DNA of 64,000 nucleotides from Adhaeribacter arboris (GTDB lineage: Bacteria; Bacteroidota; Bacteroidia; Cytophagales; Hymenobacteraceae). Positions within the stretch are counted from its first letter, which is position 1. Each line of letters opens with the position of its first letter. The stretch spans positions 620,001 to 684,000 of the forward strand of contig NZ_PYFT01000001.1 of NCBI RefSeq assembly GCF_003023845.1, read 5' to 3'. The translations under genes were made by a program, and so were the position numbers. The notes under the pieces are model-generated. The model worked only from the letters and a program-made list of their open reading frames with translations. It made no database searches and had not been told where the DNA came from. Below are positions 54,693 to 59,168 of the stretch, piece by piece.

Positions 54693-54725
54693 AAAAATGG
54701 CAGCTTTCATTAAGCTGCCATTTTT
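54693..54725. terminator. Intrinsic terminator of the aromatic operon
   Basis: AAAAATGGCAGCTT (54693-54706) and AAGCTGCCATTTTT (54712-54725) pair perfectly around TCATT. It lies just past the stop of the DAHP synthase/CM gene and could act in both directions. Confidence 0.85.
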
Positions 54726-54747: not shown

Positions 54748-55869
54748 TTACGCTTTTGCTTCTTGCTCTTTTTTATTCAGAATATCGGTTTGTATGTTAA
54801 TAGAATATTGGTGGATGCTTTGCAGAACAGATTTCATAAATTGCTCATCCAAGCCGTTTTTACGGGCATGTTCCAACCGATCCGCAATAATTTGGTCCCA
54901 GCGTTTTACCTGATAAATGGTCATGTTGTGCGCTTTTTTGTACTCGCCAATTTTGCGGGATAAACGAGCCCGGCGGGCAAATACTTCTACCATTTCGTCG
55001 TCTAATTCGTCAATTTGCTTCCGCATTTCTTCCAGTAGGTGGTGATCCTCTTCGGCTAATTCTTCGCCTTCCGGTTTCCGGAAACGAATGCCGGCTAACA
55101 TTTTACCTAAATTTTCGGGGGTTACCTGCTGGGCGGCATCGCTTAACGCTACTGATGGATCGATGTGCGTTTCGATCATTAAACCGTCCATGGCTAAGTC
55201 CATCGCTTTTTGCGCCACCGGCAGTAACAACTCGCGGTTACCGGCAATGTGGCTCGGGTCGCAAATCAACGGAATTTCGGGTAATAAACGCTTGAACTCA
55301 ATGGCGCTGTTCCATTTTGGTAAGTTGCGGTAAGGCGCGTTATCGAAAGTAGAGAAGCCGCGGTGAATGGCGCCAATCTGGCGCAAACCCGCCTGGTTTA
55401 AACGCTCAATGGCACCAATCCACAACTGCAAATCGGGGTTAACCGGGTTTTTAACTAATACCGGAATATCAGTGCCGCGCAACGCATCGGCAATTTCCTG
55501 TACCGTGAAAGGGTTAACCGTAGTCCGGGCGCCAATCCACATAACATCTATACCCGCTTTTAACGATTCGTAAACGTGCATGGCATTCGCCACTTCTACG
55601 GCTACGCGTAAACCAGTTTCTGCTTTTACCCTTTTTAACCATTTGAGTCCGGGTACACCCACACCTTCAAATGAATTTGGGCGGGTACGGGGTTTCCAGA
55701 TACCGGCCCGATATATATTTACCCCCGGAATAGCTTTAATACCGTTGGCCGTAGCCATTACTTGTTCCTCCGACTCGGCACTGCAAGGGCCGGCAATTAT
55801 AAGCGGAGAGCCGTCTGCATTTATTAAAGCAGATTCGGCCAGGACATCGATTTGAGGTTTAGGACTCAT
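54748..55869 (-). CDS. DAHP synthase fused to chorismate mutase
   Basis: Bifunctional enzyme that starts the aromatic pathway (PEP plus erythrose 4-phosphate to DAHP) and converts chorismate to prephenate. From the ATG at 55869, 373 residues: the DAHP synthase part has AGPCSAES (26-33) and KPRTRPNSFEG (phosphate-site region), and the chorismate mutase part (about 285-373) has MRKQIDELDDEMVEVFARRA and YQVKRWDQIIADRL. The fusion is typical of Bacteroidota. The ATG overlaps the stop of the aminotransferase gene (ATGA), so translation is coupled. It is the last gene of the attenuator-controlled operon. Confidence 0.95.
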   Translation of the reverse strand: MSPKPQIDVLAESALINADGSPLIIAGPCSAESEEQVMATANGIKAIPGVNIYRAGIWKPRTRPNSFEGVGVPGLKWLKRVKAETGLRVAVEVANAMHVYESLKAGIDVMWIGARTTVNPFTVQEIADALRGTDIPVLVKNPVNPDLQLWIGAIERLNQAGLRQIGAIHRGFSTFDNAPYRNLPKWNSAIEFKRLLPEIPLICDPSHIAGNRELLLPVAQKAMDLAMDGLMIETHIDPSVALSDAAQQVTPENLGKMLAGIRFRKPEGEELAEEDHHLLEEMRKQIDELDDEMVEVFARRARLSRKIGEYKKAHNMTIYQVKRWDQIIADRLEHARKNGLDEQFMKSVLQSIHQYSINIQTDILNKKEQEAKA

Positions 55870-57041
55870 TTTGTAACAGTTAAAAAGTGATGAATATTTT
55901 GAATTGCTTGGGTTATACTTTCTTCGGGAGCGCATACCGATACGCGCACGTACCGTTCGCCATTTGATCCAAAAATTTTGCCTGGGGTTAGAAACACGTG
56001 GGCTTCGTAGAGTATGGAATCTAAATAAGCTTCTACATCGCTAATGTCATCGGGCACCCGGGCCCAGACAAACATACCGGTAGCTTCGGTAGAATATTGA
56101 CAGCCTAGTAAATCCAGTAACTGGTAAATTAAATGGCGCCGACGGTGATACACTGCATTACGCTCGGCGTGCCAAGAAGCCGGGTTTTGTAAGGCCTCAA
56201 TAGCCGCTTGCTGTACCGGTAGAAACATCCCGGAATCCAGGTTACTTTTTACCGTAATAACAGCGTCTAGGTAATCTTTCTGACCTAACACCATACCTAC
56301 CCGCCAACCGGCCATATTAAACGATTTGCTTAAGGAGTTAAGTTCCAGGCAACAATCCATTGCGCCGGGTACGTGCAAAATACTTACCGGTGGTTGGGTG
56401 TTCAGTACTAAGCTGTAAGGATTATCGTGGACAATTAAAATCTGATGCGCCCGCGCGAAATCAATTATTCTGGCAAAATCAGCTTCGGTAGCTAAAGCAC
56501 CCGTGGGCATGTTCGGGTAATTCAGCCACATTAACTTTACTCCGCTTAAATCTTGCTCTATTAAGGCATCTAAATCAGGTAGCCAGTTGTTTTCGGCGGT
56601 TAAATCAAAGTAGACCGGTTCGGCGCCTACTAATTTAGTAACGGCCGCGTATGCCGGGTAGCCAGGATTCGGGATTAAAACTTTATCGCTCGGGTTTAAA
56701 AAGGCCAACGAAATGTGAAATACGCCTTCTTTAGAACCTAGTAAGGGTAGTACTTCTGTTTCCGGATTTAGCTTTACGTCGTAAGTTTGGGCGTACCAAT
56801 CGGCCATAGCAGTACGCAAGGCCGGAATAGAACGGTAAGGTTGGTAACCGTGGCTAGTAGGTAATTGGGCCGAAGCCGTTAGAGCCTGTACCGTATTTCC
56901 CGAAGCTGGTAAATCCGGATCGCCAATGCCCAGGTTTATTATTTTTTTACCTTGCGCCATTAAAGCACGTACTTCGGCCAGTTTACGGACAAAATAATAT
57001 TCCTGTACTTCGTTCAGCCGGTTTGCTTTGGCAATAATCAT
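55866..57041 (-). CDS. Aromatic/aspartate-type class I aminotransferase
   Basis: A 391-residue PLP enzyme. The cofactor lysine is in SLSKSFNMAGWRVG (about 233-246), with WLNYPNMPTGALA and VHDNPYS as conserved pocket residues, and YVRVSVCAPEES at the end. In this operon it probably transaminates phenylpyruvate, 4-hydroxyphenylpyruvate or prephenate with glutamate. It overlaps both neighbours by 4 bp (ATGA with pheA upstream and with DAHP synthase downstream), which keeps the stoichiometry together. Confidence 0.9.
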   Translation of the reverse strand: MIIAKANRLNEVQEYYFVRKLAEVRALMAQGKKIINLGIGDPDLPASGNTVQALTASAQLPTSHGYQPYRSIPALRTAMADWYAQTYDVKLNPETEVLPLLGSKEGVFHISLAFLNPSDKVLIPNPGYPAYAAVTKLVGAEPVYFDLTAENNWLPDLDALIEQDLSGVKLMWLNYPNMPTGALATEADFARIIDFARAHQILIVHDNPYSLVLNTQPPVSILHVPGAMDCCLELNSLSKSFNMAGWRVGMVLGQKDYLDAVITVKSNLDSGMFLPVQQAAIEALQNPASWHAERNAVYHRRRHLIYQLLDLLGCQYSTEATGMFVWARVPDDISDVEAYLDSILYEAHVFLTPGKIFGSNGERYVRVSVCAPEESITQAIQNIHHFLTVTK

Positions 57042-57871
57042 CTTTTTCCTCTTTGGTAAATTCCCAATATTTTCATTTCCACAATCAGCGGCGTAATTAA
57101 ACTGATGGCTTCTTCAAACGTGGCATAATCTTCCCATTCCAGATCTAATAAAATAGCGAACTCGGTGGGTTGGCTCAGGATAGGAATAGACTGGATTAAA
57201 GACAAGTTAATGAATAAATCCCGGAAAACATCTAATATTTTAGCTAGCTCGCCCGCGCGGTGGTGCAACGTGAAAATAACGGAAGCCTTGTTTGCCTGGC
57301 TTTTATCGGCGAGTGGCTTCCGCGAAATAATCATAAACCGAGTATAATTTTCTTTGTAGTTCTCTACGCGTTCTTCCACAATTTCCAGCTCGTAGCGTTG
57401 GGCCGCCATGCGGCTGGCAATGGCTCCTACCCCCACTAAATTATTTTCTCGGATTTCCCGGGCGCTTTCCGCCGTATCCGCCGATTCTAAAGCCTGAATG
57501 TGCGGATTTTCTTCCAGGAAGTTGGTGCATTGCAGTAAAGCCATGGGGTGCGAACGCACTAATTTAATATCGGCAAGCGATTGGCCCGGCAGAGCTAGTA
57601 AGTTCTGCTCAATGGGTAAATACGCTTCACCGATAATAGAAACCGGATAATCCTGCAGAAGCGAATAGTTATTTAGAATACTGCCGGCTAAAGCATTTTC
57701 AATGGCCATGACGCCAAAATCCGCTTCCCGGCTTTTAACGGCGGCACAAACCCGCTGAAAAGTCATGCACGGCACAATCGCAATGACTTGACCGGCAAAA
57801 TATTGCTGGGCCACTACATCGTGGAATGAGGCCGGACCGCCTTGAATCGCTACTTTTAAATGGTTACTCAT
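57038..57871 (-). CDS. pheA: Prephenate dehydratase
   Basis: Converts prephenate to phenylpyruvate. The 277-residue protein has the PDT start KVAIQGGPASFHDVVAQQYF, the catalytic TRF motif at Thr177-Arg178-Phe179 in NYTRFMI, and a C-terminal ACT domain (about 195-275; FTLHHRAGELAKILDVF) for Phe feedback. It is the first structural gene after a Phe/Tyr-coding leader and terminator that ends only 5 bp before its ATG. The overlapping aminotransferase and DAHP synthase genes follow. The dehydrogenase branch (tyrA) is absent from this cluster. Confidence 0.95.
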   Translation of the reverse strand: MSNHLKVAIQGGPASFHDVVAQQYFAGQVIAIVPCMTFQRVCAAVKSREADFGVMAIENALAGSILNNYSLLQDYPVSIIGEAYLPIEQNLLALPGQSLADIKLVRSHPMALLQCTNFLEENPHIQALESADTAESAREIRENNLVGVGAIASRMAAQRYELEIVEERVENYKENYTRFMIISRKPLADKSQANKASVIFTLHHRAGELAKILDVFRDLFINLSLIQSIPILSQPTEFAILLDLEWEDYATFEEAISLITPLIVEMKILGIYQRGKR

Positions 57872-57876
57872 AGTGT

Positions 57877-57906
57877 AAAAAAAAAGCCCCGAGTTTTCGG
57901 GGCTTT
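57877..57906 (-). terminator. Attenuator terminator of the aromatic operon
   Basis: On the minus strand AAAGCCCCGA (57906-57897) pairs with TCGGGGCTTT (57892-57883), then the T-run continues to 57877, making nine T in a row. It ends 5 bp before the pheA ATG. The leader contains CGGGGTCTT (57950-57958), which can pair with the 5' arm instead, giving an antiterminator. Confidence 0.85.
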
Positions 57907-57947
57907 GGAGTTTTATATTTTGTTATTTCAAACGCAATACTATTCTC

Positions 57948-58019
57948 TTAAGACCCCGGAGAGGTGCTAAAAAAGTAATAGTAAAAGTAAAAAGCGTTTG
58001 TTATTCGTTTCATTATCAT
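57948..58019 (-). CDS. Phe/Tyr-rich leader peptide (attenuator)
   Basis: A 23-residue ORF on the minus strand whose codons 10-17 read FYFYYYFF: four Phe and four Tyr in a row. The TAA is 41 nt before the terminator hairpin. Slow decoding when Phe- or Tyr-tRNA is scarce would hold the ribosome at 57969-57992, leaving CGGGG (57954-57958) free to pair with CCCCG of the terminator; fast translation reaches the stop, covers CGGGG and lets the terminator form. The start may be Met1 (58019) or Met3 (58013). This is the logic of enterobacterial pheL. Confidence 0.85.
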   Translation of the reverse strand: MIMKRITNAFYFYYYFFSTSPGS

Positions 58020-58541
58020 TTACTTGATGCCCCAATATTAAAAAACGAATTCTTAAGAAGCAAAACTTTCTGAAAAAAAATAAATATTTTCTTTTTTTCT
58101 GGCTCTCCTTATTGCTTATATAACCCGGTCGGTATTAGTCATTCATTTCAGAAACCAAAAATTCTTGGTAAAGAATCTATTCAAATTTAATTGAATGAAG
58201 TTAACTAACTATTTATCACAATAAGGAGTTTATTATTGTACTATAATGAGGTATTCTAATATATTGGATTTAAAATGCCATCTGAATAAATTACTATTTT
58301 GAAGTGGTTTATGCTTGAAATATATTTGCCGCAGGTAAATTAATCAATGTTTTCATAAAATTGAGTAGAAATTTTGGTTGATTTATTCTAATTGTAAAAA
58401 TATTTGTTGTCTGGTATTTAATAGTAAAATATTGTTTTTAAACGCTCGCTATATTATTGTATATGAAAAGAAATTTACGAATCCTTTTACTAACGCCCTT
58501 TTCTCTTAGCGCTACTTTTAATCGTTATTTTCTTTAAAGAA
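58020..58541. other. AT-rich gap upstream of the attenuator and the lipoprotein gene
   Basis: A divergent region that must hold promoters for the aromatic operon and for the 58542 gene. No clear TAnnTTTG with a proper -33 box was found. A 24-codon frame at 58463-58537 is too short and lacks support. Confidence 0.5.
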
Positions 58542-59168
58542 ATGGTTTTTCAGAAAATATTCCGTGGTTTTGCGGCCGGAGTAATGTATACTTCCTTTTT
58601 TCTTTTTACAGCAACCAGTTGCATGCGGACTCCAGTAACGAAAAGTGCGACAATTTCGGCCAGCGAAGAGTTTTACCAATCTTTAGGAAATCTGCAAGGT
58701 AGAATGGTGCAAGGCCAGACGATTTACCCCGAAGGAAAGTGGACGCCCTTTGCCGGTCAGCCTATTTCTTTAGAAGTAACAAGCCATACTAAAAGTAAAA
58801 TGCGGATTCCTATTTACATTGGCGGAAAAGTATACAGCACTTTAATTTTGGAACGTACGCCCACCGGATTTTTGCTAAAACACGAAAACAAAACAGAAAA
58901 TGGGCAATCTCACGAAATAAATTTATATGGTGGGCATACTAATAATAATGGAACGGCATTCATGCAATTCTTCCCGGCCGATACTTATACCAAAAACTTG
59001 ATGCGGTTATCTTCCCCCAGCGTGTGGACTTTAGCTTTTAGCAGCGACCGTTCTACCTTTAGTTACCTGGTGGAAAGCGACGGGAAATTGCAAATGCAAA
59101 TTGATTTTAACTTAAACGATTACCTGGCAACTAATAGTAATAAAACCGAACAGCGGAGTAGGAGGTAG
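58542..59168 (+). CDS. Hypothetical lipoprotein
   Basis: A 208-residue protein with a lipoprotein signal peptide (FFLFTATSC; Cys27). The mature part is beta-rich (GKWTPFAGQPISLEVTSHTK, MRIPIYIGGKVYSTLILERT, HEINLYGGHTNNNGTAFMQF) and ends with a basic tail. No known family was recognised. It should sit in the outer membrane, facing the periplasm or the outside. It is convergent with the prohibitin gene; a shared terminator lies between them. Confidence 0.7.
   Translation: MVFQKIFRGFAAGVMYTSFFLFTATSCMRTPVTKSATISASEEFYQSLGNLQGRMVQGQTIYPEGKWTPFAGQPISLEVTSHTKSKMRIPIYIGGKVYSTLILERTPTGFLLKHENKTENGQSHEINLYGGHTNNNGTAFMQFFPADTYTKNLMRLSSPSVWTLAFSSDRSTFSYLVESDGKLQMQIDFNLNDYLATNSNKTEQRSRR

Follow-up and report, generated by a model that had tools for sequence, protein, structure and literature searches.

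A predicted Phe/Tyr leader-peptide attenuator upstream of pheA in Adhaeribacter arboris and other Bacteroidota

The pheA operon and its leader region

We analysed a 64,000-nucleotide stretch of the Adhaeribacter arboris genome (hereafter, the window), in which pheA, encoding prephenate dehydratase (57038..57871, minus strand, ATG at 57871; PF00800, E = 3e-57), is the first gene of an operon. It overlaps by 4 nt a class I/II aminotransferase gene (55866..57041, minus strand; PF00155). The last gene encodes a DAHP synthase–chorismate mutase fusion (54748..55935, minus strand; PF00793 and PF01817), these being the limits of the listed ORF, whose true start may lie further in. A hairpin with arms TGGCAGCTT and AAGCTGCCA followed by five T (54698..54720, minus strand) lies 27 nt after this gene; it was read by eye, is absent from the terminator-scan listing and likely marks the end of the pheA operon. 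Upstream, the neighbour is a divergent ORF of 208 amino acids with a lipoprotein-like start (58542-59168, plus strand), which lies 523 bp from the leader described below and has no Pfam match. A reverse-strand sequence resembling this ORF was also seen by eye upstream in another pheA locus (L004).

The region before pheA had been described, in a sequence-only reading, as a 23-codon minus-strand ORF with eight consecutive Phe/Tyr codons (FYFYYYFF), followed after 41 nt by a 10-bp stem and nine T, the last of them 5 nt from pheA, and this description proved exact to the base. The 23 codons and stop (58019-57948, minus strand), read directly from the sequence, are MIMKRITNAFYFYYYFFSTSPGS. Although the ORF has the extent that was read, the genus alignment favours an ATG at 58013 as its start (MKRITNAFYFYYYFFSTSPGS), a position that is ATG in seven of eight sequences and GTG in one; this is the third codon of the ORF and would give a leader peptide of 21 residues. 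The control codons, TTT TAC TTT TAC TAT TAC TTT TTT (57969..57992, minus strand), are conserved, and all eight genus members have seven or eight F/Y in ten residues. From the leader stop, 41 nt lead to the 5′ arm of the terminator, AAAGCCCCGA (57897..57906, minus strand), which is separated by an AAAC loop from the 3′ arm, TCGGGGCTTT (57883..57892, minus strand). The two arms make up the 10-bp stem (57906-57883), and the nine T occupy 57877..57885 (minus strand).

Two further pairings would compete in this RNA. The first had been proposed between the leader stretch and the terminator 5′ arm and was confirmed directly: CGGGGTCTT (57958-57950, minus strand), within the last leader codons, pairs with AAAGCCCCG (57906-57898) at eight of nine positions, and the pairing and geometry comparisons given below identify it as the candidate antiterminator strand. 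The second involves CAAACGC (57994..58000, minus strand; segment 1) and GCGTTTG (57929..57935, minus strand), which are exact complements and would form the 5′ and 3′ strands of a third, protector fold. Compared with 200 shuffles, folding of the leader RNA gives z = -4.91, which we also count towards the third fold in the window.

Further upstream, TTTG (58064-58061), a 20-nt spacer and TAATATTG (58040-58033) form a predicted Bacteroidota-type promoter (58033..58064, minus strand) by comparison with the consensus TAnnTTTG, as it is given for Bacteroidota in PMC7366714. Transcription from it would begin some 10 nt ahead of the leader. Of 26 loci examined, 10 had the pattern TTTG-N18-22-TA upstream of their leader, the four closest species among them, a count that comes without a chance control. 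A scan for sigma-70 promoters together with terminators returned hits that were no more numerous than in shuffles.

Conservation of the leader and covariation of its pairings

To separate conservation from chance, we scanned for a short ORF rich in F/Y per ten residues within 350 nt upstream of pheA. From 244 pheA loci, 232 remained after removing identical upstreams (12 repeats), and 231 after dropping L105, which has a short upstream; the window's order is over-represented in this sample, which leaves out many of the 136 matching genomes as well as weak matches. Leaders with at least six, seven or eight F/Y were found at 146, 138 and 71 of the 231 loci, respectively. The reverse strand gave 8, 1 and 0 of 231, and dinucleotide shuffles of the pheA upstreams gave 57, 9 and 1 of 2310.

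At the threshold of at least six F/Y, a leader stands before pheA at all 49 loci read in the window's family and at 141 of 203 loci in its class (named loci being assigned to it by title), in line with the expectation that the aromatic codons would be conserved among relatives; it is absent directly before pheA in 85 of 231. Named loci with leader scan data include Flavobacteriaceae, Rikenellaceae and Cyclobacteriaceae. Outside that class, a Phe/Tyr leader before pheA is present at 5 of the 28 loci that represent other classes of the phylum (L111, L113, L118, L232 and L233), which rules out that the element is absent from those classes.

All 146 leaders contain both F and Y, and 145 contain at least two of each. 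Tyr codons throughout the Bacteroidota set (146/146) distinguish it from the E. coli pheA leader peptide, which we take to lack Tyr. Trp codons were considered as a third signal and rejected, W occurring in too few run windows (23/146). F and Y interchange at positions of the run, and the flanking residues differ between lineages. Both features speak against nascent-chain arrest, in which free Phe or Tyr would bind a ribosome holding the leader peptide, as in TnaC-like systems, instead of codon starvation being sensed. The peptide is short and aromatic, as such a mechanism could use, but one would look for specific residues to be kept in an arrest peptide, and it would be strange if a biosynthetic operon were induced by its end product. 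We therefore regard arrest as very unlikely and favour sensing through the codons.

Within the 64-kb window, the leader is the sole short ORF (8–45 codons, either strand) with at least eight F/Y in ten. In the whole genome, the eight-codon F/Y string gave seven overlapping matches at five places, and a reversed control pattern gave five matches. The string is thus not rare in its own genome, and we rejected it as evidence by itself; leaders were not demonstrated at the other four places. Its recurrence could suggest that the element is an ordinary terminator next to a chance aromatic ORF, an explanation contradicted by the conservation just described and by the covariation described below. The upstream gene, moreover, is divergent, which leaves no preceding gene on the minus strand for the terminator to serve. 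A chance arrangement is, in our judgement, extremely improbable.

A terminator candidate followed every one of the 146 leaders with at least six F/Y, although the finder was loose and run without a shuffle control, and a few candidates are weak; in 134 of the 146, a stem of at least 7 bp lies 5–60 nt past the stop. For these 134 leaders, we compared the pairing of the 36 nt after the F/Y run with the locus's own terminator arm or with the arms of other loci. Own pairings averaged -12.9 kcal/mol, against -8.3 kcal/mol when swapped, and ranked in the top 5% relative to swaps at 69 of 134 loci, as opposed to 9/134 and 14/134 for control pairings. Exact runs of at least 6 nt were found with 89 of 134 own arms, compared with 16.2 after swapping. 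The difference persisted among 32 representatives, one per cluster of pheA at 60% identity (own -13.6, swapped -8.9 kcal/mol), for which none of 10,000 permutations was as good. The antiterminator core takes 65 distinct forms that change in concert with the arms, among them GGGGCT, GGGACTT, GAGGCTTT, GAGACTTT and AGCGGTC. By these comparisons of sequence, the candidate antiterminator strand and the terminator 5′ arm covary across lineages.

Conserved aromatic codons and covarying stems among relatives had been named as a check in the sequence-only reading, and the comparisons across lineages bear this out. Inside the genus, the antiterminator pairs hardly vary, with 0 of 19 changed on both sides, and the own pairing is unremarkable against swaps in six of eight members (ranks 0.23–0.42). 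Because of this near-invariance, the evidence of covariation stems from the wider relatives.

An antiterminator pairing of -9 kcal/mol or better was available with 115 of 134 own arms and with 52 of 134 swapped arms. In the 115 loci, the strand starts at a median of 10 nt past the last F/Y codon (interquartile range 9–11), and the start falls at 8–12 nt in 84 of 115, compared with 104 of 553 in shuffled sequence, for which the median was 15. The leading edge of a ribosome lies roughly that far (about 10 nt) beyond the A-site codon, given its footprint, and the 10-nt spacing, as a matter of geometry alone, thus fits a switch operated by a stalled ribosome. In 96 of 115 loci, the strand lies wholly within the leader ORF, stop included, so that a ribosome finishing the leader would sit on or near it.

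The third fold, raised as a possibility in the sequence-only reading, gained support within the genus and only in part further away. The own CAAACGC:GCGTTTG pairing ranked within the best 8% of swaps in eight of eight genus members, and in three genus species one pair is changed on both sides from A-U to G-C. A predicted fold containing this pairing also pairs the antiterminator GGGG to ACCUC, likewise in loci L004 and L006. Across the wider set, the protector fold reached the top 5% relative to swaps at 26 of 134 loci, with control pairings at 9 and 14 of 134. As judged from swaps, predicted folds and covariation, the protector fold is supported in the genus and, beyond it, in some loci only.

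Association with DAHP synthase and doubled leaders

We then compared the presence of the leader with the content of the operon in 144 loci with at least 3.9 kb of sequence downstream of pheA. DAHP synthase lies downstream of pheA in 82 of these loci, and 78 of the 82 have the leader; where it does not, the leader is present in 5 of 62 (L206, L220, L221, L222 and L227), for which the reading extended over no more than about 4.5 kb. The four loci that have DAHP synthase downstream but no leader come from Blattabacterium (two) and from other classes (two). The Blattabacterium endosymbionts (L097 and L103) have kept a pheA–aminotransferase–tyrA–DAHP synthase operon while the leader is absent.

We also read the upstream sequence of 19 leaderless loci for which more than 3 kb was available, comprising 17 Algoriphagus-type loci and the two from Blattabacterium; the upstreams of 14 of 31 leaderless pheA–aminotransferase–tyrA operons fall outside this long-upstream reading. 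All 17 Algoriphagus-type loci (16 Algoriphagus and one Rhodonellum, among L066-L102), which count among the 62 loci that lack DAHP synthase downstream of pheA, carry an F/Y leader before DAHP synthase–chorismate mutase. The operon is rearranged in these genomes, with DAHP synthase–chorismate mutase first, and the leader precedes pheA by about 3.6–4.2 kb. Next comes a hairpin, its T-run 42–56 nt past the leader stop, and then the DAHP synthase gene.

The Algoriphagus-type arrangement bears on whether the element might act on translation or mRNA stability, with the leader ORF coupled to pheA, for example by reinitiation, and the hairpin mainly shielding the pheA start. A hairpin that ends 5 nt before pheA, as in the window, would suit such coupling. 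The stem is followed by a U-run, however, the distance from terminator to first gene varies widely across loci, and the Algoriphagus-type leader and hairpin precede a different gene; in addition, reinitiation, in the passages of PMC4833913 that treat it, concerns far shorter leader-to-gene distances. Control of this kind seems to us highly improbable, and we retain termination of transcription as the point of control.

Stand-alone DAHP synthase genes did not show a nearby leader: for the best ORF per locus within 1.5 kb in 29 such loci, the leader-like score was at most 5 in 26, and the other three ORFs lay at 689–1310 nt. Two of the 29 (L284 and L286) are second copies, the other copy lying near pheA. 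A strict rule, by which a leader occurs only if pheA and DAHP synthase share an operon, is broken by four genomes of one genus (G132, G170, G182 and G217; loci L044, L049, L046 and L048), in which a leader with six F/Y precedes pheA and DAHP synthase is elsewhere. Their short leader is MLFAFYYFYQS-like and is followed by a terminator. In another genome (G094, L053), a leader-like ORF has five F/Y and a hairpin. The suggestion that mixed Phe and Tyr sensing suits an operon containing DAHP synthase therefore holds as a tendency (78/82 versus 5/62) and not as a strict rule, given four exceptions. On these gene arrangements, the tie between leader and DAHP synthase appears strong, though not strict.

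The Tyr content of the leader offered no useful contrast with respect to tyrA, the Tyr share being 0.45 where the operon includes tyrA (n = 74) and 0.41 where it does not (n = 9). In A. arboris (genome of 7.25 Mb), tyrA lies 330 kb from the pheA operon and is without such a Phe/Tyr leader. With tyrA distant and leaderless here, Tyr sensing would be sensible for the shared DAHP synthase–chorismate mutase.

Two separate F/Y leaders are present in 25 of the 146 leader loci, and 23 of the 25 belong to two genera of the window's family (g4 and g5, the latter possibly Hymenobacter), where they account for 23 of 32 leader loci (L014, L018, L020-L022, L032, L144, L151, L157, L160, L165, L166, L168-L170, L173-L175, L177-L179, L181 and L186). 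In 23 of 23, the loose finder places one terminator candidate between the two leaders, with another before pheA; the intervening candidates of L022, L174 and L175 are poor. The remaining two loci, L198 and L201, are from outside the window's family and were not counted with the 23. L198 has a possible double Phe/Tyr leader, MAYRSAYYFYFFCFFSSCRG and MGYTYYYFFSLMDHRRLWVV, upstream of pheA.

Relation to known systems and proposed mechanism

Leader-peptide attenuation is textbook knowledge in Enterobacteria. The enterobacterial pheA attenuator, filed in Rfam as Phe_leader (RF01859), shares with the element described here a leader peptide with control codons, an antiterminator and a terminator, all before pheA. 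The window matches RF01859 over its full length (1-125 of 125; 44.8 bits, E = 5.4e-6) but below the gathering score of 55. Among 14 relatives, four match at 37.2–42.6 bits, again below the cut-off, and ten give no match at E up to 0.05. A further difference is that the Bacteroidota antiterminator strand lies mostly within the leader codons. The element would work like the Phe_leader family but is not filed there. The nine Rfam matches up to E = 1 at 57400-58500 include no T-box riboswitch. BTnc231 was considered as a name for the element and rejected: L055 has a weak match, 18 of 295 genomes of the class match at E up to 0.001, and the one hit over the cut-off lies elsewhere, not before pheA, with no leader seen there by eye.

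The A. arboris genome contains other candidate leaders of this kind. An ORF with His codons ending VHFHHYHHSSRGE lies before hisG (L258, G000:C1 near 1263287). Before a trpE-type gene, the ORF MKMKQLYTAGWWHLLEF has two Trp codons and is followed by a strong hairpin and T-run (L256, G000:C1 near 6733059), an arrangement that points to a likely Trp attenuator. We counted the presence of these His- and Trp-codon leaders in favour of attenuation at pheA. Bacteroid-trp RNA (RF01692), which is presumably a Trp-codon leader, differs from the pheA leader in operon and codons and has no match there. It has been reported as a cis-regulatory RNA of Bacteroidetes (PMC2864571).

Closest to our observations, structured 5′ elements before pheA and hisG have been reported in Flavobacterium psychrophilum, conserved in other Flavobacteriaceae, together with strong clues that leader-peptide attenuation operates ahead of amino-acid operons (PMC9723704); the main text of that report, as far as it was covered, gives no Phe/Tyr codons, covariation or occurrence beyond Flavobacteriaceae. 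Short ORFs reminiscent of leader peptides are mentioned for Bacteroides (PMC7366714). By the account in PMC2965389, no leader-peptide system was known to its authors outside Proteobacteria and Actinobacteria, ermC aside, before their Firmicutes case. Leader genes at short distances are treated in PMC4833913, which cites a comparative attenuation study from 2010 that may cover Bacteroidota. The doubled leaders resemble the tandem attenuators of Salmonella mgtCBR, in which two short ORFs in one leader are associated with attenuation (PMC3641672), but that operon is a different one, and the two leaders of our relatives share the same Phe/Tyr codons. Apart from PMC9723704, we recognised no Phe/Tyr attenuator across Bacteroidota in a literature search that had most subscription journals outside its reach. 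We judge the Bacteroidota Phe/Tyr attenuator before pheA to be new and well supported, and its class of mechanism to be already known.

The features expected of that class were found here: a short ORF with a conserved run of eight codons for the end products, an intrinsic terminator between this ORF and the first structural gene and, across lineages, a covarying antiterminator that would exclude the terminator. By geometry only, the antiterminator strand would be free when the ribosome stalls and covered when it reaches the stop. Consistent with the sequence-only reading, which gained support from comparison, covariation and geometry, the element very probably attenuates transcription by way of a ribosome, sensing charged tRNA-Phe and tRNA-Tyr jointly. 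From its anatomy, conservation, covariation and geometry, we infer translation of the leader, stalling, changed read-through and a starvation response of the pheA operon.

In the proposed mechanism, a ribosome would trail RNA polymerase through the leader ORF. When Phe and Tyr are plentiful, it would reach the stop codon and cover CGGGGTCTT, the terminator (57906-57877) would form and transcription would end before pheA; once the ribosome has gone, the CAAACGC:GCGTTTG fold would hold GGGG on ACCTC and off the terminator arm. When Phe or Tyr is short, the ribosome would stall on one of the eight F/Y codons and cover CAAACGC, blocking the protector fold. CGGGGTCTT, which lies 10 nt beyond the last control codon, could then pair with AAAGCCCCG, and with this antiterminator formed the polymerase would continue through pheA, the aminotransferase gene and DAHP synthase–chorismate mutase.

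On balance, we lean towards a broader reading, in which an old Phe-or-Tyr OR gate of Bacteroidota-wide distribution is tied to the operon, has mostly been lost where the operon was split and has been doubled in two genera of the window's family. The attenuator would accordingly precede the first gene, whichever that is, of the operon in which Phe synthesis and DAHP synthase are combined. If this is true, the polymerase must pass two ribosome checks in series in those two genera, and the serial version opens the question of what a second attenuator adds.

In the literature surveyed, leader-peptide attenuation in Bacteroidota has so far been a matter of predictions and clues only. Translation starts in this phylum rarely use Shine–Dalgarno sites. 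Its primary sigma factor is also described as different (PMC7366714), and these two properties are reasons to measure how ribosome and polymerase are coupled in Bacteroidota. A widespread Phe/Tyr attenuator that covaries and has a clear ruler from codons to antiterminator is a ready experimental target for this phylum, and joint sensing of Phe and Tyr would explain how one switch governs the shared first step.
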